Shown here piece after piece: positions 8,013 through 60,215 of a stretch of 64,000 nt of DNA. A program made the translations under genes and the position numbers. Within the stretch, counting starts at the first letter, position 1, and every line of letters begins with the position of its first letter. Source of the stretch: Glandiceps talaboti (lineage: Eukaryota > Hemichordata > Enteropneusta > Spengelidae); assembly GCF_964340395.1 (NCBI RefSeq), contig NC_135563.1:17850151-17914150 (forward strand). Direction: 5' to 3'. The notes beneath the pieces are model-generated. The model worked only from the letters and a program-made list of their open reading frames with translations, was not told the origin of the DNA and made no database searches.

Positions 8013-8575
8013 CTACTTCTCTTTCTTTTTTGAAACAAATACCCTTTCACCAGAGTTGACAGACGATGAAACGCATTCCAGATTGACAGTTGACATCATT
8101 TCAATGGCCTTTTCCTGACCCCACATGGCCCCCAAACCCATACCGCCTTCAAAAAACAAAGAAACTGGCATACAGTGCAGCAAACTAAATATATATGATA
8201 TTGGTGCCATGGCATTATCGATGTTATCAGCATGTTTGGTGTGTGAGTCGTCCTCCATCATAATGAAGTAACCACCAGTCTTCAGTACACGTGATATTTC
8301 TTCGAGAGACAAGTCTGGCCTCGCTTGGTCATGGATAGAATCTACGGCATACACCAGGTCAAAGGTCGATGTCCAGTCAGACGACAGTTTGGTAGCATCT
8401 CGGTGATGGAAAGTAACGTTGTCAAGACTCATGGCCTTTGCACGAGACTTTGCTTCAGCTAAAGCTGACTCTGAGAAATCTACGCCATGGAATTCTGTCT
8501 TCGGGAAGGTTCTTGCCAGGATACACGTAGCAGCACCTTGACCACAGCCAATGTCACATACTTTACCACCAGACT
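8013..8575 (-). CDS. Methyltransferase exon 4 (SAM-binding domain)
   Basis: Acceptor TTTCGCTAG; completes GAG (Glu) and runs through the whole catalytic fold to TAG at 8015-8013. The chain ends in a basic SKKKEK tail. Confidence 0.92.
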
Positions 8576-9432
8576 CTAGCGAAACAATGATGCATGCATG
8601 CTTATAACAAACATATTGAAAAAGCTACTGGGGGCATTGGGAGACTTATGGTAATGTGGCATTCACATAGATAACTTTTTCACGAAAAATCAGTAACCAG
8701 ATTACTCTTTTCCCATCAAAAGTTCCTTTTACATGAGGTCGATAAAGATGGGTTGCAATGTCCAATTTTCCAAGGTACACTCTAGTTCAAAAAGTCACTC
8801 AAGATGCATCCGTTTGTTTTGTTTAGCATGACAATTGTAAAAGGTATATTGTCGTCACTCTTTGCTGTTACTGTTTCATGCGCCCCAAAATCATTTTGTC
8901 TTGATCTGCAGCGTTTACACGAATCTCATCACGAGTTCTTAATTTCGCCAAAAACTATTCGACTGTTAAGCTAAAAACAATAGTAACATTATAATGTCGC
9001 ATGCCGGTCCATTCACAGTTACCTCGTTTTATCCACGCATTACACGGGTGAGATTTAACGTTTCCAGTCGTATCGTGTTATATTTATGATTATTTATGAT
9101 GTCACTGATACATCCAAATATACCCCCAATATAATTTCTTAGTTGTATACTACTTACCTAACATTTCCTTTATTTCCTTTTCACTGGTAATAAATGAAGG
9201 TGGTGTATCTCTGTACCTCTCCGAAGAAAATTTATCTTGCCATGAATGATATCGGATGTACTTCTCATAGGACAAACCTATACAGTAATCAATGATAACG
9301 TAAATCATTATAATATTTAAGATTAGCCTAAATAATTGCCGTCTGTCTGTCTGTCTGAATATATGTATGTCCGTCTGTCCGTCCGTCTGTCTGTCTGTCT
9401 GTCTGTCTGTCTGTATGTCCGTCCGTCCGTCC

Positions 9433-12391: not shown

Positions 12392-13089
12392 CACTGAAAT
12401 GTATGCAAACGGCAAAATAACACATAGATGTCGCGACATGTCGTTTGTATCATGACAAAGTTGATAGATTTGGAAAGGTTGAACCCGTGACCTTGATTGA
12501 AATGCACCAGATATATCCCGCTGCGTTTAAGGTCAAATGGACCATTTCCACCGTCTGGACAGATCGTAATCATTCACACGTCCATCCTGTCATTTTAGTT
12601 CTAAATAGCAGGCAACAAACATACCCCTTTTTTCAAACAAATTTATCGTGACCTTGAAAACACACACAGCTACATTAGTCTTTGTGTTATCAGAACGTAT
12701 GTCTAGGTCAAATATATTGATCTACAAAGCCGATAAAAAAAAACCCGCATCATTCACGATTTCCGACTGGAAAAAAACGTATAACGACTTAGAAGAATTG
12801 CATGTAACACTGACAGAACTATACAAAAAAAAAAGAAATGGAAAGGGGTTGGTAACATAAGGTGAGAGAATAGAAAAGTATTCAAGCCGCACCTTTCCTT
12901 AAGTCCTGCCAGGTCTGCTATTTCCTGCGAGGTCTTAGGTCCGCCAGCTTTGCCCATAACTGAAAACAGACCCGTTGCCGATCCAATAGCTAAACCAGCA
13001 GCCAGGAATCCTGAGCGAACAGTTTCAAACATCCTGTTATCAAATTCATCCAGTGTCTCGTCTTTTTCATCATGTTGTTTCGCCGCCAT
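8013..13089 (-). CDS. SAM-dependent methyltransferase with N-terminal winged helix, four exons
   Basis: Complete 363-aa model from exons 13089-12893, 9771-9560, 9277-9158 and 8575-8013; all junctions join in frame with GT-AG borders. Residues about 15-110 form a winged-helix domain (TSQEIADLAGLKERYVREWL and a short wing before YYLTPS). The C-terminal half is a class I Rossmann methyltransferase: motif I DIGCGQGA at 184-191 binds SAM, D209 in HGVDFS sits at the end of strand 2, DLVYAVDSIHD is motif IV, and LKTGGYFIMMED is the strand 5 region. This arrangement matches the family annotated as Rv2258c-like SAM methyltransferases in marine invertebrates. The substrate is unknown. The protein is cytosolic by appearance, with no signal peptide. 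The ATG at 13089 has a strong Kozak context (AAGATGG). Confidence 0.9.
9158..9277 (-). CDS. Methyltransferase exon 3
   Basis: Acceptor ACTGTATAG; encodes a 40-residue linker helix region (LSYEKYIRYHSWQD) and ends ATGTTAG|GTAAGTA. Confidence 0.9.
9339..9500. repeat. GTCT/GTCC microsatellite in methyltransferase intron
   Basis: Interspersed GTCT and GTCC tetramers in the 282-bp intron between exons 2 and 3, making up over half of that intron. Confidence 0.95.
9560..9771 (-). CDS. Methyltransferase exon 2
   Basis: Acceptor CCTACTTAG; the first base completes AGA (Arg). It encodes the rest of the winged helix and the linker, ending CCACGAG|GTAACG. Confidence 0.9.
9843..9965. repeat. CATA microsatellite grading into CATG and GGCA repeats
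   Basis: About 17 CATA units followed by CATG-interrupted copies and a short GGCA run. Confidence 0.95.
9973..10055. repeat. Perfect 37-bp inverted repeat with 9-nt loop
   Basis: The arm at 9973-10009 is the exact reverse complement of 10019-10055; the loop is TGTATGTAT. The arms contain non-repeat words (TATAGACATG, ACTATGTA) that also match perfectly, so this is more than CATA/TATG self-complementarity. Confidence 0.9.
11390..11540 (-). repeat. Dispersed repeat with PHD-like Cys/His signature, copy 1
   Basis: Read on the minus strand it encodes a zinc-finger-like pattern (CFATNC, then MMCCYCRKWFHVTC) resembling a PHD finger. A second copy in the same orientation lies at 12100-12265. The flanking minus frame at 11541-11860 may belong to the same element. 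It is a degenerate repeat of uncertain class; PHD fingers occur in several transposable-element proteins. Confidence 0.5.
12100..12265 (-). repeat. Dispersed repeat with PHD-like signature, copy 2
   Basis: Long stretches are near identical to copy 1 (for example ATGCACCAGGGCAATTTGTA on the plus strand). It starts about 710 bp away in the same orientation, so it is either a tandem duplication or two insertions. Degenerate. Confidence 0.6.
12308..12390. repeat. CA dinucleotide microsatellite
   Basis: About 40 copies of CA in the first intron of the methyltransferase gene. Confidence 0.97.
12893..13089 (-). CDS. Methyltransferase exon 1
   Basis: Starts ATGGCGGCG; 65 codons plus two bases, donor GGAAAG|GTGCGG. 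The frame stays open 15 bases upstream but without an ATG. Confidence 0.9.
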
Positions 13090-13118
13090 CTTGTCAGCCA
13101 ACAAGAGATGACCTCATA

Positions 13119-13616: not shown

Positions 13617-13775
13617 AGGACAACTTTTTTTATAGCTCTAGTCTGCAGGACAACTTTTTTATAGCTCTAGTCTGCAAGACACCTTTTCTATAGCTCTAGT
13701 CTGCAAGACAACTTTTCTATAGCTCTAGTCTGCAAGACACCTTTTCTATAGCTCTAGTCTGCAAGACAACTTTTT
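13617..13775. repeat. 29-bp minisatellite, about five copies
   Basis: Tandem unit TATAGCTCTAGTCTGCAAGA followed by CAMCTTTTC. Copies differ mainly as CAACTTTT or CACCTTTT in an alternating pattern, suggesting that a two-unit block was duplicated. Confidence 0.95.
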
Positions 13776-21175: not shown

Positions 21176-21179
21176 ATGG
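21176..21179 (+). CDS. Cytokine-like gene, proposed coding exon 1 (ATG G)
   Basis: Exon 2 opens in phase 1 and has an upstream in-frame stop without an ATG, so a short upstream exon is required. ATGG|GTAGGTGT supplies a start, the right phase and a good donor 192 bp upstream, and it yields an excellent signal peptide. Confidence 0.45.
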
Positions 21180-24100
21180 GTAGGTGTATCATTCGTTCGT
21201 TTTATTCTAACTGTCTGTCTCTTTAATGGCCTGATTTCTGTAACTCTATGTCAGGCTTGAAGGGTTAATGTCTTTCAGATCTTTTTTCTGTCATTCAAGT
21301 TACAGTCCTTAAAATATATGATAGCATTCAAACAAGATCCTTAACTTAATTATTTGTCTTTTTCATTTCAGTCCATATCTTAAAGCTCATTACAACTTGT
21401 ACTTTAGTAACATTTCTCGGAGTATCAGCAAGGCCAGTGAGGCATGAGCGATCGTGTGAAGAAATTTCGGGGACATCAGAAGCTCGGATACTCGTAAACC
21501 ACATCATTGCACTACAATTGGATATCAGCAAACAACATAGTATTTACTCGGTAAGTGTGATAGCTGTCATAGTATAATAGAGTCGGTCTTGATTTATCAA
21601 AAGCATAAGGAGCCATCTCTGTAATTTTTTTTTATATGTAAGGTGTACAACAAAGTTTTTAAATTGTATATCATTTGCTATAAAAGCTAGAAGAGAGAAA
21701 AGTTTTATGCGTACAATACCGCACATAGGTATACATACCGTGGAGACTTTCCTTGCCCTGTTTACTCGACATTCTTGTACTTATGGTGACTCATAATCTC
21801 ATTAGAGTAACGTACAATGTCCGTTCAGCCCCCGCCGTAAGGGTTGTTGGTGCTATACTCTGTTACTAAATTTAGAAAGGTGAATGGCGTGACGTCATCC
21901 CTTCGCTTGGTGTGCGAGATATATCACCTACTCGACTCCATCATACAAATGCTCGAGTTCGAAGGTCAAAAACTTTTAGTGCTACCCTGCCTTGCCTTGC
22001 CTTGCATACAAAAATGGTAACAATTCACTAAATTTTATCAGAATGTGCGTAAAATGAAGGCCGACTAGTCTAAATGAAAATATAATTGTTTCGAAGAAAC
22101 ACTAAACTGAAGGAAGACACCATTAGGTGTGACACGCATGCGTATTATACTCCAATTTAGTCAATTACTTGCTTCATACTTCATTTTCTACTCCTTGGTT
22201 TCCGATAGAAATAGCTTGGTCTTCTCATGCCTATTTCTTTACTTTTATAGGAAAGTTATGGCAGTGATAGTAAATACAATGACGAAATGCAGAAGCTTTC
22301 CGCCAACGGAGTACCCAGCTTTCCACGTTCCGTAACAGTGAGACAGTCTATCGAAACGTTACAGGTAGGTCACTCGTTTGAAGTTGAATACGGAATAGAA
22401 GTGGACTCGTCGTACCACATACAACGAACTAGTTGTCTGTGGTCGTACTCACAACACTGTGAGTCACGCTTACTATATAACCATACAGTACTGTAAATGT
22501 TTTGTCGTCTGGTGTGGTGTAAACACGCGTTTATTTGTCACAAGGATTCTCACACGAAATCGTGACAGGGAACAAGCATCTTGACGTTCATATTTTAATA
22601 CTAATAACAGTAAGGAAACAATCGTAGATTTGTGGCACGCACCTATGGCCGGTTCATTGACCACGGTTTAAATGTCATTAAAATAACTTCGTACAAAGAG
22701 ACCTTCATACGGCTAAAGGTCAACTTTGTTTGCTAAACGAAAAATATACCGCACTACACTCTCCTTGAGTGATATCAGAGTGTCAGAACAGTTGATATAT
22801 CAGGGCAATGCAGTCCAATGCAGTTCATTATCAAGGAGAATTGTTCAATATTAAGATATTTACAGAAGTGTGTGTGTTAAAAGCTTGTGGATACACTATA
22901 AGGTCCCTGTTTCAATATTAGATTGAGTACGAGGGGTTTGGATATATTGGAATCCGTAAAATCACAAGAATGTGTTCGTATTTTATATGTATCTTATTCT
23001 CATAAAGAAGTCATCGATTTAATGACCAAAAAATCCTGTAGTATATTTTGATCATAAAAATGGAAGTGAAACACTCTGCCATAAAGTGGATTGCTACATG
23101 TGTTTGACCGAAAAGTTTATTACCCCAAACCCCAACGCGACGGGGATAAAACTAGCCTCGTTGTGATAAACAAGGAAACGTTTCACACAATACCAATACC
23201 AACTCAGATCTTCACCGGGGCGGTAACGACTATGCAGCGTACACTTTACGCCTCTGCGTTTTTTTTCTGCATTGTTCGAGCCGTGGCTGATTTGAAGCGG
23301 TTCAGATTTAACTGTTATATTGGTATTTCTAACGTGTTTTTTGCCTGAAGATTATGTCATCATTGTTTTGCGTTAAGTGCCCCATACGCTTTGTCTACGA
23401 TACTGTATGGGAAAAGCACGCTGACTCATTCTAATGTACAATGTCGTAACTACGCTTTAGTAGACTGGGACAACTCGATATAAATTCATTTAGGATGAAC
23501 ACACTGGTTTTCCACTTCTCCCCGTGCATATTTCCATGTCATATGAAAGTACTTATTATTAACATATCATAAAAGATCTAAGCAGCGAATATAAAAAATT
23601 GAACGCTCAAGTTCGCCAAGCCCTTTTACTTCAACTATCTTCTTTCAATGTACGTGATTATGTTTTTTATCATTCAACGTCATCTCATATCTAAACTGTC
23701 TTTAATACCTGTCAAGTTTACTTTTGACAACTAACTGCAAGAAGTAAGACTTAAAATACATGTATATTTTATAGTGATGACGATTATAACACAAGCAACA
23801 GATCTATGTTTTGTAACAATTTAAATGTCATTGTACGCTTTCGGTCAGGTCAATCCTGTCATAGGCCTGTGGATTTCTAGCTGTGTATTTATATGAAAAC
23901 ACTTGTTTCATAATTAAAGTATTGGGATTGTTGTGCTATCATTTCCTTACTTGAAATTTGACTGGCATTTTCCCTTCATTCTTTTATAGGATATTAGTCG
24001 TATTTACAGTCAACTCCGCTCTGATCTCATCACTTACCAAAACTTCTTAGACGAGTTGTTGGATAACTTGGACGAGGAGGATGTAGCATTGGAAAATATG

Positions 24101-25182
24101 CAAATTACACAAGGACAAATAATAGCAAAGCTGACGTCACTAGTAAGTCATTTATACGATGTCTAAGAAAAAATAAAATGATAACCATACGTTGCCTTGT
24201 TAGGAAAGAGAATCTTAGTATAATTTTTTTTGCTTTGAAGTGTATTTTGTGATGTGTTCACTGAAGTTGGCGTTCTGTTTGAACAATATACATTTTTGTA
24301 CATGTATTACGAGATCATGCGCATGCCTAGATACTTCGTTTTATTTCATCGACGTAGGATAAAAAATATTTATGAAAGTTACTCGAACGTTGGATTTTAA
24401 TTTTTTCTATGAGTATGGTGTACGTCGTAGGACAGTACGACACAGGTGTAGACTTTACACGACTCATGGGACCGGAGAGGGCGCTCTTTCACAACACGGT
24501 TTTCATGATGTACACTCTACACATTTCGACGACAACTGTTTAACCGGTCAATGTATTAGTAGAAGTGCAAAGTTTTAGATACGTTACCTATTCTTATACA
24601 CACACACGCACACATTCCAACACGTGGTTTTTAGTATCTTTTATTAGAATAATAAGCCCTAGAGAAGACAACAAGTGACAAAACTATATATGTTTTCATT
24701 TACAGCTTCACTGTCTAGGTGTTGAAGTAGCTGATGGGGACACTGTAGATGATACAGCTCTAACCATGATAGACACCTATCAACCTATAGAGGATTTGGT
24801 GGCTAATTACATCCACAAACTACGTCTATACGTCATCAGTGCAAAACAGGTCGCCGAAAAGTCACAAGACACATATGAAAACATCGCAGAGGAAGACGAC
24901 GACGATGATGATGATGACGACGACGACAACAACAAAGACGATGATGAAGATGAAGATGACGATGATGATGATGATGATGAAAAGAGAAAGAAGAAAGAGG
25001 AGAAAAAGAAGGCAAGGAAGGCAAAGAAGGACAGAAGTGGCAAGAAAGAAAGAAAGGGCAAGAAGAACAGGGATGGCAAAGAGAGAAAGGGAAAGAAAGA
25101 TAGAAAGGGGAAAAAGGAAAGAAAGGGCAAGAAAGCACGCAGCGGTAAAAAGGATAAGAGTTTGAAGCATAAGCAAGCTTAA
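21176..25182 (+). CDS. Class I helical cytokine-like secreted protein, five exons
   Basis: Proposed exons 21176-21179, 21372-21550, 22251-22364, 23990-24142 and 24706-25182 give 308 aa. Intron phases are 1-0-0-0. Residues 1-21 are a signal peptide (MVHILKLITTCTLVTFLGVSA). The mature chain has helix A (about 36-62, ARILVNHIIALQLDISKQ) in exon 2, an AB loop ending GVPSFPRS in exon 3, helices B and C (about 90-155) in exon 4 and the start of exon 5, and helix D (about 166-207) in exon 5. It has only two cysteines, C30 before helix A and C153 at the end of helix C, the positions bridged in LIF and OSM. The tail is about 35 acidic residues and then about 60 basic K/R/G-rich residues. Tiny phase-1 first exons, followed by phase-0 introns, are typical of GH, EPO, IL-6 and G-CSF genes. 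The first exon (ATG G) is inferred; exons 2-5 are firmer. Another four-helix secreted protein cannot be excluded. Confidence 0.65.
21372..21550 (+). CDS. Cytokine-like gene, exon 2 (signal peptide, helix A)
   Basis: Acceptor TTTTTCATTTCAG, donor TACTCG|GTAAGTG; 179 nt. Contains the cleavage region GVSA|RPVRHE, then C30 and helix A. Confidence 0.75.
22251..22364 (+). CDS. Cytokine-like gene, exon 3 (AB loop)
   Basis: Acceptor ACTTTTATAG, donor TTACAG|GTAGGT; exactly 114 nt (38 codons, phase 0 both ends). Human IL6 exon 3 is also 114 nt as I recall. Polar sequence, no cysteine. Confidence 0.75.
22365..23989 (+). other. Intron 3 of the cytokine-like gene
   Basis: A 1.6-kb intron with no repeat or exon recognised. 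Introns 2 (700 bp) and 4 (563 bp) are likewise plain. Confidence 0.6.
23990..24142 (+). CDS. Cytokine-like gene, exon 4 (helices B and C)
   Basis: Acceptor TTCTTTTATAG, donor TCACTA|GTAAGTC; 153 nt, phase 0. Two strongly amphipathic segments are separated by an acidic turn (LDELLDNLDEEDVALENM), as in the helix B/C exon of IL-6. Confidence 0.78.
24706..25182 (+). CDS. Cytokine-like gene, exon 5 (helix D, acidic and basic tail)
   Basis: Acceptor TTTCATTTACAG; 158 codons to TAA. Begins LHCLGVEVAD, then helix D (YQPIEDLVANYIHKLRLYVI), then an Asp-rich run from GAY repeats and a Lys-rich tail of GKK and RKGKK units. Confidence 0.8.
   Translation, partial: LHCLGVEVADGDTVDDTALTMIDTYQPIEDLVANYIHKLRLYVISAKQVAEKSQDTYENIAEEDDDDDDDDDDDNNKDDDEDEDDDDDDDDEKRKKKEEKKKARKAKKDRSGKKERKGKKNRDGKERKGKKDRKGKKERKGKKARSGKKDKSLKHKQA
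24895..24981 (+). repeat. Coding GAY trinucleotide repeat
   Basis: GAC/GAT repeat in frame within exon 5 encodes the poly-Asp run. Synonymous mixing of GAC and GAT shows it is not a recent pure expansion. Confidence 0.9.
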
Positions 25183-28018: not shown

Positions 28019-29155
28019 TTGTGAAATCCTATCACAGTGATTCTTACACATTAACAAACAACACGATTTTGAAATCAGTTCGTCATATTCTCTGGGATAA
28101 CCCGTCATATTTTAGAGCCATGTTCTTATCCCCTGTTCAGTGTGACTTACTTCCTTACTGCCCTTTCATGTTTGAGTTCTCTGACTCTGTTTGATAGATG
28201 CCAATGAGAAACTACGTATGTTAAGACAGTAAGATTGAATGAATGCAGTTTTTACGACACATTATCTAAATGAGATTAACAAAAACTTGCCACCATACAG
28301 ACATCTAAACATTGAGACATTTATGTGTGTGTCTTTACTTCATTTAGACCATGGTCACTATAATATATCCATTGCATGAAATTGCGGTATTGCTATCTTA
28401 AGTGTAGAATGTGCAGTTTCTTGTTGGTTTCTGCTTGGGTGTCAAACAGAGCCAGTGAACACTCACGTACATTGGACGATACATCTGTGACATTTGTGAC
28501 TTCAAGTATCTTGTTACGGTACCGACAGAGGGCGCTAACACAAATGGTGGCATGTTCCCAAAGCATGCTAAGCTGCCACCCCCATGGGTCAGCATTTGGG
28601 AGTGTGAATATTGTCCGCAGTGCTAGCCATATTATACTATAGCATGTATAGAGGAGCTTGCCAACAATTGCACATTCTCATTTCAGTCGGTTGTGGCGCT
28701 GCTCCCTATTCAAGATAATGCAAACACTTCCATGTCTCATCCTTCTGTAACCATGGTTACGTGCGATCAATAATACACCATACAGACAATATTTGACGTT
28801 CATACACCAGATCTTTATTGAATCAGAAATTACATAAATTTGCTGTGAGGCGTAGATAATGATAATAAATTAGAAATGGGTTTTCAACTACCATTCTGAG
28901 TACTTCAAAGTGTTTTCCACATCTATAGAATTTGTGGTTTATTTCTCTTTAGACACCTATACATGAAGTTTCCATACGTCACATTCCAAGAAGAGACCCT
29001 TGCCAAGATTGAACACTTGATCTCCTGTTTGAATTTCGTCATAGCAAGATCACGTGCTCTATGTGAATTAAGATTCTCTTCCATCATTTCCGCTGACGTT
29101 GTTCAGAGACGCACATCAAGTCGACGTCGCTGTGTACGCGATTTCAACTAGAAAA

Positions 29156-29626
29156 ATGAAGTTGGTTACCATCCTTCTCGCCGTATGTTCCTGTACGACT
29201 GCCCGTATCCTAAGACAAGAAGCTTTGTTGCAAGCCGATGACAGTCCTAGCCAAGATGAACTTACTGAGGCACAAGCTGTGAGAGTTGAGGAAGTTAGCC
29301 TAACACCACATCAAATTGATGATATTGCAAACTCACGGGAAACAATCGAGAGATATGAAAAGAATCCAACGTTGGTTAAGCAAAATCAATTTAGTACAAT
29401 TGTGCCACTGACACAAGATCAACAGGCCAAGATTCTCCGAGAGTACCCGTACTTCTTCAAAGCACAAACACGTTCTGATGGTGACATCAGTTTCAGACAG
29501 TCTGCCTCAAATACGGGAGCAGAAATTCCCCAAGAAAATGGCATTCGTGTATGTCCAGTGTCAACTGATTGGCAGGCCATCACACTCGCGATCACCCCTG
29601 AGAACCAACTCGTTCAGGTTGTACAG
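29156..29626 (+). CDS. Neurotrophin/Spaetzle-like gene, exon 1
   Basis: ATG with A at -3 (GAAAAATG). Encodes the signal peptide, prodomain and first knot strand, ending ...LVQVVQ. Open frame continues 57 nt upstream without an ATG. Confidence 0.85.
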
Positions 29627-31924
29627 GTGAGTTCCAATGCCATGTCCTTCATGGCCTTGATGTTTATAGATTCCACACATATTCGATGAAAAACACTCCG
29701 GAAAGTACTAATCCGGACTAACAATATTTGAAGTTTTGTATTTCTAACAGTTCTTTCCGTACATGAGAGGTCATCGTCCATGTAAGATATAAGATTTACA
29801 ATAAGTAAATAAAATGTGTGTGCCTAAGCACTTGGCCTTTAGTTGCTTGCCTAAAGGGCGGACCAAGTGTCGTGACGCCGATCATACAGGAGTGAGTGTA
29901 AACGGATGTCCTTTTTCCCACACCTCGTTCTTATTCGGAAAGTGCTGAAAGTCGATAGTTTGGTCTCCAGTAAACCTCTTACTCAACATACGAGAATCGG
30001 ATTTCATTCGAATTCTAATTCGCTGAAAACACATAGTATGATCTTTGAATATTCTGTTACTTGATATCGCAGTGGGTCAATGTTCCTATAATATAATGAC
30101 CTTTGGTCTCACCAGATGAAAAACAGAAACTTTCAACTCCCACAATTAATAAACACAAAGTGCTGTGGCTAGTTTTAGAAATATGCGCTCCGATAACGTT
30201 ACGCATAGTTCCAGATTTACATTATTCTGTACATGATTACGTTATTAGACGGAATAAGTCGAGACTCGATTCTGACAATGCTCTTCTCCCCCAATGTGTT
30301 TGGGGACAACGTCAACTCGGGTCCCTACTCTGTCTGCAAGTAGGACTAGCAGGCACTATGCTCAGCCATAGGTCAACTTATAACACTTTCACTTGCATAT
30401 TTTATTAACGACAAGCTTTTTATTCTCACACTTTAGTATTTTCAAGTTATCAGCTTTTGTCTTCCTGAAATGTCAGTTTAGCAATATTTGATAATGTTAG
30501 ATAAATCATTATACAGAACTTGGAATTTTTGTAAACTTTTTTTTCTTTTCATTTTTTGGTCAAAGCTCAGACCACTAAAGGAAGTGGCCTGAGGTCAGAG
30601 TCGTCGTTTTGGCTTTTCTGAAATGGCGTTGTAACACAACTGTATAGTTTATGTGTTATTTATATATGCCATCATTTTACTTTTGGTATGGACAGTACCT
30701 TCGTCCCGAGTCAATTATGTCACGTTTTGAATGTGTATCAACTTGCCTATTTTTATCATATACCATCAATTGTCTGCTGTTAGCCATATTGCTATCTTTG
30801 CAATGCACACCATCAATTGGCTGTTACCACGGGCGTGGTCTTGTTGCTAGGCCTATTTGCATATATTTTTTGAATGTTTATTCACTTACATATTAATCCC
30901 CATTGTTATTTGCAACATACATCATTTGGCTGTGCTATAGGCGGGTTCTTGTTGCTAGGCATATGTGCATACATTTTAAAAGCCTTTATTTATTTGCCTA
31001 GCAATACCTGTGTTTATCTTTGCAACATACACCGTCATTTGGCTGTTGCTGTGGGTGTGGTCTTGTTGCTAGGTATTCATCTTTGCATATTTGCATATCA
31101 CTGATGGGATCATCATGTTATCAACAATTCTTAATCTAAAAAAGAACGTTCCCGCCAAATTTCAGACCAATCTCCCCAGAAGTTTTTGAGTTTGTTTTTT
31201 CGACCAAAAATGACATTTTGACCCAAATTTTACACCTGTTATGCGATCATTTTGCTTTGTACGATTTTCCAACTAGACGCCAAAAGTACTATCCCCACCA
31301 AATATCAATGCAATCAGCTGGGTGGTTTTTACTTTAAGTTGGTTGCATACACAGTGTCAAGGACACACAGACAGACACACACGCACAGAGACTTTACCAT
31401 GCGTATAGCATTACTGAACAAAATCTAACAAAATCATATAAAAATCAGTTATACCCCACGCAATCAAGCTGAACACGTTTGAACAAAAAATATAGGATTT
31501 ATACCCTGACCGTGCTACGTCACAACATCGTGCATCTGCGTCATTGCATTGATTCTGCAGTACTTGAAGTATGACGAGTTTAACCGTTCGACGTCGCCAT
31601 GGTGTAGTGATTTAAGAATTGGACAGTGGCATATAGTAGTAGGTAGTAGGTGTGTAGCGTGTTGGTAGCAAATGAAACGAATCTTACCCATCTTGAAATA
31701 ATTCTGTTTTTTTTTCTTCTACTGAACAGCTTCCAGACGTGATGTATGAGCAGCTAGTGTTTGAAGAGACGTGCACAACTACAACGTGTAATGGTGTAGC
31801 CAACAGTGTGTGTGCAGCTGTGCCGAGATACGTACGAGCTGTTGTAATTGACTTGGTTACAAACGGAATAACTATCACCGATATAACAGTCCACTGCTGT
31901 GCTTGCCACACTCGGTTTCCATAG
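29156..31924 (+). CDS. Neurotrophin/Spaetzle-like cystine-knot growth factor precursor, two exons
   Basis: 221-aa secreted precursor from 29156-29626 and 31730-31924, joined in phase 0 (GTACAG|GTGAGT to CTGAACAG|CTT). Residues 1-16 form a signal peptide (MKLVTILLAVCSCTTA). A prodomain of about 115 residues follows, then a cystine-knot domain. VCPVSTDW at 132-139 aligns with the VCDSVSVW region of NGF, YEQLVFEETC with the YFFETKC region, and the C-terminal ITDITVHCCAC with RIDTACVC. Mature cysteines are 133, 172, 177, 185, 213, 214 and 216: six for the knot plus one extra. The CC-x-C ending is closer to Spaetzle. The fold predicts a dimeric extracellular ligand for a Trk/p75 or Toll-type receptor. 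There is no clear RxKR furin site before C133. An AATAAA lies at 32089. Orthology between neurotrophin and Spaetzle is unresolved. Confidence 0.85.
30796..31103. repeat. Three tandem copies of a 111-bp unit
   Basis: Copies begin at 30796, 30908 and 31018, each with TTTGCAAYRYACA, a TTGGCTG word, then GTTCTTGTTGCTAGG or GTCTTGTTGCTAGG. They diverge by roughly a fifth. Confidence 0.8.
31104..31425. repeat. Dispersed repeat with CAAATTTCAGACCAATCT motif
   Basis: Contains words typical of a repeat seen in many marine invertebrate genomes (CAAATTTCAGACCAATCT, CACCAAATATCAATGCAATC, then ACAGACAGACACAC). It follows the 111-bp copies directly, so both probably form one non-autonomous element. Class unknown. 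Confidence 0.45.
31730..31924 (+). CDS. Neurotrophin/Spaetzle-like gene, exon 2
   Basis: A pyrimidine-rich acceptor (TTTTTTTTTCTTCTACTGAACAG) leads into 64 codons carrying six of the seven mature cysteines, ending CCATAG. Confidence 0.87.
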   Translation, partial: LPDVMYEQLVFEETCTTTTCNGVANSVCAAVPRYVRAVVIDLVTNGITITDITVHCCACHTRFP

Positions 31925-37264: not shown

Positions 37265-37687
37265 TGACGTATTTGCTGCAAATCGAAGACATGGTTGCTC
37301 TATACTTGCGGCAAATTAACGCCGCATTTACTGCACTAAATTTTAGTACAAGGAATTGATAATTATTTGCTGCTCATTTAATTGCTGCTGCAAATGAATG
37401 ACGTATTTGCGACAAATTGACATGTATTGCTTCCCATTTACGGCAAATTAACAACGTATTTGTTGCAAGTGTTAACTGAAATACGACTAATTGACAACAT
37501 GTTTGCTGCACGTTTATGACTATTTGGCGGATTTGCTGGTCATGTTATAGCAAACTGACGTATTTGCTGTTCATCTACGGCAAACTGACGTATTTGCTGT
37601 TCATTTACGGCAAACTGACGTATTTGCTGTTCATTTACGGCAAACTGACGTATTTGCTGATCATTTATGGCAAGCTGATAACATATA
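37265..37687. repeat. 30-bp minisatellite with degenerate leading copies
   Basis: Unit CGGCAAACTGACGTATTTGC plus TGTTCATTTA. Four nearly perfect copies at 37555-37675 are preceded by about eight decayed copies. Each unit is ten codons, giving an artefactual repeat peptide. Confidence 0.9.
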
Positions 37688-38902: not shown

Positions 38903-59187
<20,285 letters not shown>

Positions 59188-60215
59188 TGTCCTACATAAA
59201 TAATCAAAATGAATTATTCATCTAATGTAAGTTAAATTTAATAGTGCTGTAATGTTTTACAATAAATTAGTCACTCAGTATAAAGCTCTCATCAGTGACT
59301 GTTACATCTGAGGACCTTCATTTGTTTTCATTTTCATACTCGGCTCCGTTTCATTTGAATGAATGGTTGTTGGCTCAGTGGTCTAATCTCATACAAGAGA
59401 CCGATATGAAAATGACGACACTTCTGGGACAAGGAGATTTGTGGATCCTTTGCCAACACAGACAGACATATTTAAAATGTATTGCACAAATTCAAATCAA
59501 TTTACGGTAAGAGTTACGTTCTTTAATGCGACTGAATAATTACTTGACAGCTATTAAATTATGCCCTGGAGAATACTGACTTGGGTAAAGTATGCACTTT
59601 TCCTACTTTTGTTGGTTTTCAACACGATAGAGTTATTGTACACTAACCATTAATCACTGTAAGAATGTCTGAAGTTGTTGGGTTTTACAACTCACAGTGA
59701 CACATTTGTCTCTTTCGAAATTACTGTAAAGAAACACATTTCTCTCAATTGTGTGTATTACACCTAGCAACCGACAACATAGCTGTCATGATGTCATTTC
59801 TGCAAACTACACTCTGTACCTTGTTCCTAGCCATCAATATTGTTGGACCCTTGATAATTCTGTTGTAATTATCGATTGCAGAATTCGATTTACGGTTACG
59901 TTACGTGTTTATGTACCATTCTATGTCGTGGGAGTGTAAGAACTATTTCCTTGAAGTGTAGTACATCACGAGTCTCACGGAAAACAAAATAGTTTTATAT
60001 TCCTGTTAAGGGTCATTGGAATTCCGTGCGTCGTTATACTCTTAACGACTGGGTTGTCCGCGAAGCGAATAACCCGAAGTTACCTGACTTTTAGGTTAGT
60101 TGTTGCCCTTCGAGAACACTTGTATTGTTTTGACCTTGCCCGGTACATGAAAGCGCGACATTTCCTATAACCATTCTCCCTGTGATTGGAAGGCAATAAA
60201 AGTACTTCATGAATA

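Follow-up and report, generated by a model that had tools for sequence, protein, structure and literature searches.

A gene at positions 21176 to 25182 on the forward strand of a 64,000-base stretch of the Glandiceps talaboti genome (contig NC_135563.1; the whole stretch is called the window below) probably codes for a class I long-chain helical cytokine, a divergent one of the granulocyte colony-stimulating factor (G-CSF)/interleukin-6 (IL-6) kind, in an enteropneust hemichordate. This reading is based on the structure of the gene, the similarity of its helix B-C region to G-CSF, the coincidence of its fourth intron with that of the G-CSF gene, and the presence of gp130-type receptors in the same genome. 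Cytokines of the IL-6/G-CSF kind have so far been known mainly from vertebrates.

The five-exon model was confirmed in the sequence with coding lengths of 4, 179, 114, 153 and 477 bases, which join into a single open frame of 308 residues with no internal stop and with intron phases 1-0-0-0. All four introns are bounded by GT and AG, and their acceptors have 8 or 9 pyrimidines among the 10 bases ahead of the final four. Scored against a simple donor consensus, the donors of introns 1 to 4 reached 6, 7, 8 and 7 of 9; in the background, for which every GT in the window was used, 12.9% scored 6, 2.9% scored 7 and 0.2% scored 8. The weakest part of the model is the 4-base exon 1 (21176..21179, ATGG), which would supply the start codon and the first base of codon 2 ahead of the phase-1 intron and was placed from the frame and its donor GTAGGT (6 of 9). 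Exon 2 (21372..21550) codes for the predicted signal peptide (about residues 1-21), C30 and predicted helix A (about 38-58), and exon 3 (22251..22364, phase 0 at both ends) for the AB loop, a G-V-P-x-x-P motif and the initial turns of helix B (from about residue 91). Most of helices B and C, an acidic turn and an L-x2-Y-x3-L signature are assigned to exon 4 (23990..24142, residues 100-150). Exon 5 (24706..25182) carries the end of helix C with C153, then the CD loop, a helix D predicted at about 176-205, a charged tail and the stop codon. All exons after the first follow from the frame, the contents of exons 3 and 4 also from the alignment with G-CSF, and helices A and D from low-confidence structural models.

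The encoded protein thus consists of a hydrophobic leader (MVHILKLITTCTLVTFLGVSA), about 190 largely helical residues, and an end of about 97 residues that is D-rich at about 212-242 and K-rich at about 243-308. The leader was judged by inspection and hydropathy, from its hydrophobic N-terminus and from small residues where cleavage would be likely. The mature protein has two cysteines only, C30 and C153. The tail (residues 212-308) is made mostly of D, E, K, R and G, shares its exon with helix D, and is encoded by DNA with imperfect repeats whose units range from 3 to 18 bases; to our knowledge such a charged tail is unusual among cytokines. No paralogue was seen in the 590-Mb genome, where the protein search gave four matches among five candidates scored, all of them the gene's own exons. 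The original prediction, which was made from the letters of the window, had proposed these exons, coding lengths and phases, a signal peptide, four helices in the expected order, and an exon 4 with two helices joined by an acidic turn. The gene model and the leader were borne out, most of helices B and C do lie on exon 4, and helices in the expected order were seen in both structural models described below, at low confidence. The charged tail had not been part of that prediction.

The initial clue to a relative was found by eye, as the segment SQLRSDLITYQNFLDEL of the protein resembled SQLHSGLFLYQGLLQAL of human G-CSF. The protein was then set against a panel of 17 sequences that consisted of 11 long-chain cytokines, IL-2 and 5 non-cytokines; the human G-CSF in it was identical to PDB 1rhg. 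Human G-CSF gave the highest z in this panel (5.8 and 5.5 in the two directions of shuffling, with none of 500 shuffles as high in either), followed by EPO (4.3 and 3.7), whose match ran from the end of helix C into helix D. The best non-cytokine control was syntaxin (3.5 and 2.9), and APOE reached 2.6. In both this comparison and the block tests the similarity was limited to the B-C region together with a few preceding residues, where the G-V-P-x-x-P of exon 3 was aligned with a G-I-P-x-x-P of G-CSF. Against 24 of 120 fetched mammalian G-CSFs the mean Smith-Waterman score had a z of 5.6, and none of 300 local shuffles was as high. When hhalign was run against a G-CSF profile, the protein scored 21.3, the highest of 150 shuffles being 18.9. 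On the same scale IL-6 scored 21.0 (probability 2.2%, E 0.022), level with the protein, while the other cytokines scored 31.0 (IL-23A), 19.3 (CLCF1), 16.2 (CNTF) and 13.1 (IL-2), the superfamily members LIF, GH and EPO 13.3-14.5, and the non-cytokines 18.5 (APOE), 14.1 (ferritin), 12.8 (syntaxin) and 12.2 (tropomyosin).

The match is an ungapped block of 51 residues covering helices B and C. Compared with 87 distinct G-CSF blocks it scored 37.9 (z 5.3), a value that no shuffle reached in sets of 2000 local and 2000 full ones. The G-CSF block was also slid along all open frames of at least 51 residues in 228 kb of the genome, in which some loci overlap. The resulting 33,567 placements had a mean of -49 and a standard deviation of 13, and none was as high as 37.9; a score above 15 was seen once, for exon 4 of this very gene extended into its intron. 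For comparison, the best placement of the block on IL-6 scored 3.4, in the matching register. A multiple alignment could be drawn across all four helices at 16-24% identity to G-CSFs, although outside the B-C region it would, taken alone, carry no evidential weight. Among the sequences compared, the nearest relative appears to be G-CSF rather than LIF or GH (OSM was outside the comparison).

The positions of the introns were compared as well. Those of the G-CSF gene (CSF3) were located from splice isoforms among 15 of the 120 fetched G-CSF proteins, which put introns behind residues L65 and L101 and behind either Q149 or Q150 (numbered as in protein P0002), the isoforms being unable to distinguish the two glutamines. 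In the CSF3 gene structure, intron 4 follows Q150. In one isoform (P0069) an insertion stands after residue 103, two residues away from intron 3. In the protein studied here, intron 4 falls after L150 in phase 0, which is 40 residues past the signature residue D111 without a gap; in G-CSF the distance from the signature residue G111 to Q150 is also 40 residues (39 if the intron follows Q149). IL-6 would likewise have 40 residues from signature to intron 4 by its exon lengths, its sequence having been checked against PDB for this mapping. Intron 3 precedes the signature residue by 11 residues here and by 9 in G-CSF, and intron 2 lies about 8 residues further on than that of G-CSF in the multiple alignment. 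Human IL-6 has phases 1-0-0-0 and coding exons near 19, 191, 114, 147 and 168 bases. The gene layout of the superfamily, with a small phase-1 first exon, phase-0 introns, and helices B and C on one exon, was found here. It has been reported that the G-CSF genes of carp, human and mouse have five exons and four introns (PMC6389648).

The genome holds three gp130-type receptor genes, R1, R2 and R3. When it was searched with the Pfam profile EpoR_lig-bind, six exons matched weakly within E 10, the best at 0.007 and none over the cut-off; two prokaryotes among the 14 control genomes gave matches in the same search. Three of these six exon matches fell in receptor genes once the flanking DNA was read. 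R1 (about C7:19179318-19200507, forward strand) has a leader, an immunoglobulin (Ig) domain, a C-x-W module, WSEWS, fn3 domains (of whose exon pieces three exceed the Pfam cut-off and four fall below it), a hydrophobic segment and a long cytoplasmic exon; the hydrophobic segment and the Box 1-like motif AKPIPEVKLPEV that follows it were recognised by eye. Its assembled Ig-D1-D2 part passed the EpoR_lig-bind cut-off (E 3.7e-8) and matched chains of CRLF1 (4.7e-14), IL-11RA, the prolactin receptor, gp130, IL-6R and G-CSFR, while titin and other Ig proteins matched its Ig domain. R2 (C7, about 19222-19209 kb, reverse strand) has a C-x-W exon, and no WSXWS exon was found in the DNA read around it; R3 (C17, about 18473-18452 kb, reverse strand) has both C-x-W and WSKWS exons. 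Directly ahead of R2's actual D1 exon, at about 19219570-19220400 of C7, tandem copies 83 bases apart repeat the start of a receptor D1 exon (WILTSNSMFISLTVKPVLAVNHSCH). Hemichordate receptors of the gp130 type are as such already known, an IL6R of Saccoglossus being shown in PMC13203501. The original prediction had proposed homology with the IL-6/LIF/OSM/GH superfamily and had named gp130-like receptors in the same genome as a check. Such genes were found, R1 by the Pfam cut-off, and together with the G-CSF-like B-C region and the matching intron 4 they support the proposed homology, helices A and D being silent when taken alone.

Several results weigh against the cytokine reading. A Pfam scan of the protein found no cytokine family at E up to 10, and a sequence search of PDB found no relative. 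A database of 5.8 billion proteins, whose G-CSF matches show that it covers nr and UniRef entries, was searched twice and gave 129 and 54 candidates, none homologous at E up to 10. The Pfam IL6 and GCSF profiles were silent across the genome, the window's own exons included; this silence is not proof of absence, because neither profile search matched in its controls. In the pairwise panel the raw score was greater for syntaxin (85, z 3.5) than for human G-CSF (74, z 5.8). The z against single G-CSFs in the set of 24 ranged from 1.4 to 7.0 with a median of 3.3, and the Smith-Waterman z to G-CSF was 11.9 for IL-6 and 6.6 for the protein. The probability that hhalign itself assigned to the protein was 2.3% (E 0.021), and a HMMER profile of G-CSFs ranked it third of 2002, with two shuffles higher. 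Helices A and D, compared singly with G-CSF, were equalled or bettered by 261 and 253 of 400 shuffles. The PROSITE pattern for IL6/GCSF/MGF, C-x(9)-C-x(6)-G-L-x(2)-[FY]-x(3)-L, was not matched in full, as S, I and D replace both C and the G. AlphaFold2 gave a mean predicted local distance difference test (pLDDT) of 41.8 for the protein alone, and 57.5 with a predicted template modelling score (pTM) of 0.32 when 18 mammalian G-CSFs were placed in the alignment, a run that is biased towards G-CSF in any case. Both models contain helices in the expected order, at a confidence too low for structure searches, and Foldseek and VIA-align runs with these two weak models gave nothing at E under 1. Two candidate matches were rejected. 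A Pfam CDC45 match (1.2e-5, below the cut-off) covered the charged tail and vanished once the tail was omitted, and a prolactin chain (E 8.3) from the structure search was not accepted as evidence, no other cytokine being among the matches listed.

Part of this evidence would suit a secreted, helix-rich protein unrelated to cytokines, whose match to G-CSF and coinciding intron would be the product of chance from looking for cytokines. The signal is limited to the B-C region and the residues immediately before it, helical controls rise as high as z 3.5 (syntaxin) and 2.6 (APOE), neither AlphaFold2 model is usable, and selection enters as well, since the match was spotted by eye before the 17 sequences were compared. 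We nevertheless consider this explanation unlikely, because the B-C block stands clear of 33,567 real placements, the position of intron 4 is independent of the sequence score, the phases 1-0-0-0 also fit cytokines, and receptors of a fitting type are present in the genome.

The composition of residues 212-308 and the short repeats in their DNA could also suggest an acidic and lysine-rich protein of the extracellular matrix or a mineral-binding protein, in which the D- and K-rich tail does the work and the N-terminal helices are a mere scaffold. However, the tail is preceded by a part of about 190 residues that is split in the exon pattern of a cytokine, and an Asp/Glu-rich extra segment, though a short one, has also been described in carp G-CSFa1 (PMC6389648), so that a matrix protein seems very improbable. 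We give still slightly less credit to a helical cytokine that arose independently in this lineage, or from a GH/EPO or Unpaired-type branch, and merely resembles G-CSF. For such an origin speak the scores of EPO, which also exceeds the shuffles from the end of helix C into helix D, and the finding that no relative from other phyla came out of the 5.8-billion-protein searches; against it, G-CSF has the top z among the 17 sequences and GH shows nothing.

The reading of the gene as a G-CSF/IL-6-like cytokine was retained, and the protein was filed in the superfamily only, not as an orthologue of IL-6 or G-CSF, because three strict family features fail. The C and G residues of the signature are replaced, with its L-x(2)-Y-x(3)-L part present; the two AB-loop disulphides, a trait of IL-6 and G-CSF, are not possible with C30 and C153 as the only cysteines; and the Pfam GCSF and IL6 cut-offs were not reached. 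As for the superfamily itself, whose secreted proteins have a helical domain of about 160-220 residues, such a domain is indicated by the leader and by the helices of the low-confidence models. The protein would be secreted, would fold as an up-up-down-down four-helix bundle, and would bind and pair one or more of the gp130-type receptors, which would then trigger JAK-STAT signalling. A disulphide may link C30, which precedes helix A, to C153, where helix C ends. The charged tail, acidic and then basic, may retain the ligand in the extracellular matrix or may alternatively be cut off at dibasic sites; either role of the tail is a guess.

Other features of the window and genome were recorded. 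At 29072-31921 (forward strand) there is a nearby gene resembling that of a secreted ligand. Its product has the leader MKLVTILLAVCSCTTA and, encoded by two exons, a cysteine-rich C-terminal part; this part is coagulogen-like (Pfam E 6.5e-5, just under the cut-off; PDB 1aoc E 0.033) and has a faint match to NGF (E 0.13). On the reverse strand are a tectonin-domain open frame (634-1350, Pfam E 1.4e-5, below the cut-off) and two open frames with S-adenosylmethionine-dependent methyltransferase domains (8016-8624 and 12757-13113), perhaps exons of one gene, the latter also with an Rv2258c-like winged-helix domain. The same strand has pieces resembling D-threonine aldolase/alanine racemase about 13 kb apart, at 44973-45314 (Ala_racemase_N E 0.006, below the cut-off) and 58747-59217 (assigned by eye). 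Minisatellites with units of 29 and 30 bases lie at 13619-13774 and 37531-37678, the second of which could be translated into repeats of the peptide QFAVNEQQIR. Nothing in the window matched in scans for Rfam families and tRNAs.

Contig C40 is mitochondrial DNA in head-to-tail repeats of 15,435 bases, with three COX1 copies in 51,222 bases. Its gene order, cox1-cox2-atp6-cytb-cox3-nd3-nd4L-nd4-nd5-nd6(minus)-nd1-nd2, is vertebrate-like except for cytb, which lies between atp6 and cox3 and not beside nd5 as in the two hemichordates of PMC2697986. The vertebrate-like order argues against an echinoderm, which had been considered at first. ATA stands at isoleucine positions (by eye), the G+C content is 53%, and AAA and AGG occur 7 and 5 times against 54 for AAG in 11 stop-to-stop frames, which overrun the genes. 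The reading of ATA as isoleucine is common to echinoderms and hemichordates (PMC2697986), and the mitochondria of Balanoglossus are described as missing AAA and AGG, with coding genes of 50-52% A+T (PMC3121625). These features suggest an enteropneust hemichordate.

The original prediction had called the superfamily scarcely documented outside vertebrates, which holds in general, with exceptions in the GHl protein of amphioxus (PMC9010856) and the Upd ligands of insects (PMC13203501). A survey published in 2026, which covered 18 phyla or subphyla, gives IL-6 in vertebrates only (PMC13203501), and a 2022 review reports several further type-I helical cytokine genes in amphioxus and no detected one in acorn worms, which it counts, oddly, with the urochordates (PMC9010856). 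For the purple sea urchin, no apparent cytokine receptor signalling is stated in PMC3296744, whereas PMC13203501 lists an IL6R. Judged by title and abstract start, none of the papers among the matches listed reports a class I cytokine from a hemichordate, the subscription literature being mostly outside the scope of that search. Invertebrates are known to have receptors of the gp130 kind; IL-6-like ligands, for the most part, have not turned up in them. We lean somewhat towards the view that the gene is a pre-chordate relative of vertebrate G-CSF/IL-6, in which case the last common ancestor of hemichordates and vertebrates would already have had both the ligand and its gp130-type receptors. 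The B-C exon would then be the conserved core, helices A and D would have drifted past recognition, and the charged tail would have been added. If so, a hemichordate G-CSF/IL-6-like ligand would date the ligand-receptor pair before the chordates and would be a concrete candidate ligand for the three receptors. The exon layout and the B-C exon would also offer a route to further ligands where searches with whole proteins fail.

When compared with known systems, the protein has features of several. In LIF and OSM, cysteines before helix A and at the end of helix C are joined by a disulphide, and the cysteines of the protein stand at those two places. The FxxK motif with which helix D of LIF and OSM begins was not seen in the protein, and there is no sequence similarity to LIF (z 0.75). 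With IL-6 it shares the phases 1-0-0-0, roughly the exon lengths, and the 40 residues from signature to intron 4, as well as the hhalign level. In contrast, the pairwise similarity to IL-6 is at chance (z 0.2), the IL-6 cysteines are absent, and the Pfam IL6 profile is silent in the genome. Amphioxus GHl (208 residues; PMC9010856) is likewise an invertebrate type-I helical cytokine but is described as GH-like. The Drosophila Unpaired proteins are also of an invertebrate, as ligands of Domeless, which is termed an IL6R homologue (PMC13203501), but no Unpaired-type match came out of the Pfam scan of the protein. From vertebrate G-CSF the protein differs in its low identity (16-24%), the lack of AB-loop cysteines, the place of intron 2 (shifted onward by about 8 residues), helices A and D that cannot be recognised as those of G-CSF, and the long acidic and basic tail. 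What the two have in common is the ungapped 51-residue B-C block, the G-[VI]-P-x-x-P motif before helix B, an intron 4 in the corresponding position (39 or 40 residues from the signature), and a phase-0 intron 3 within two residues.

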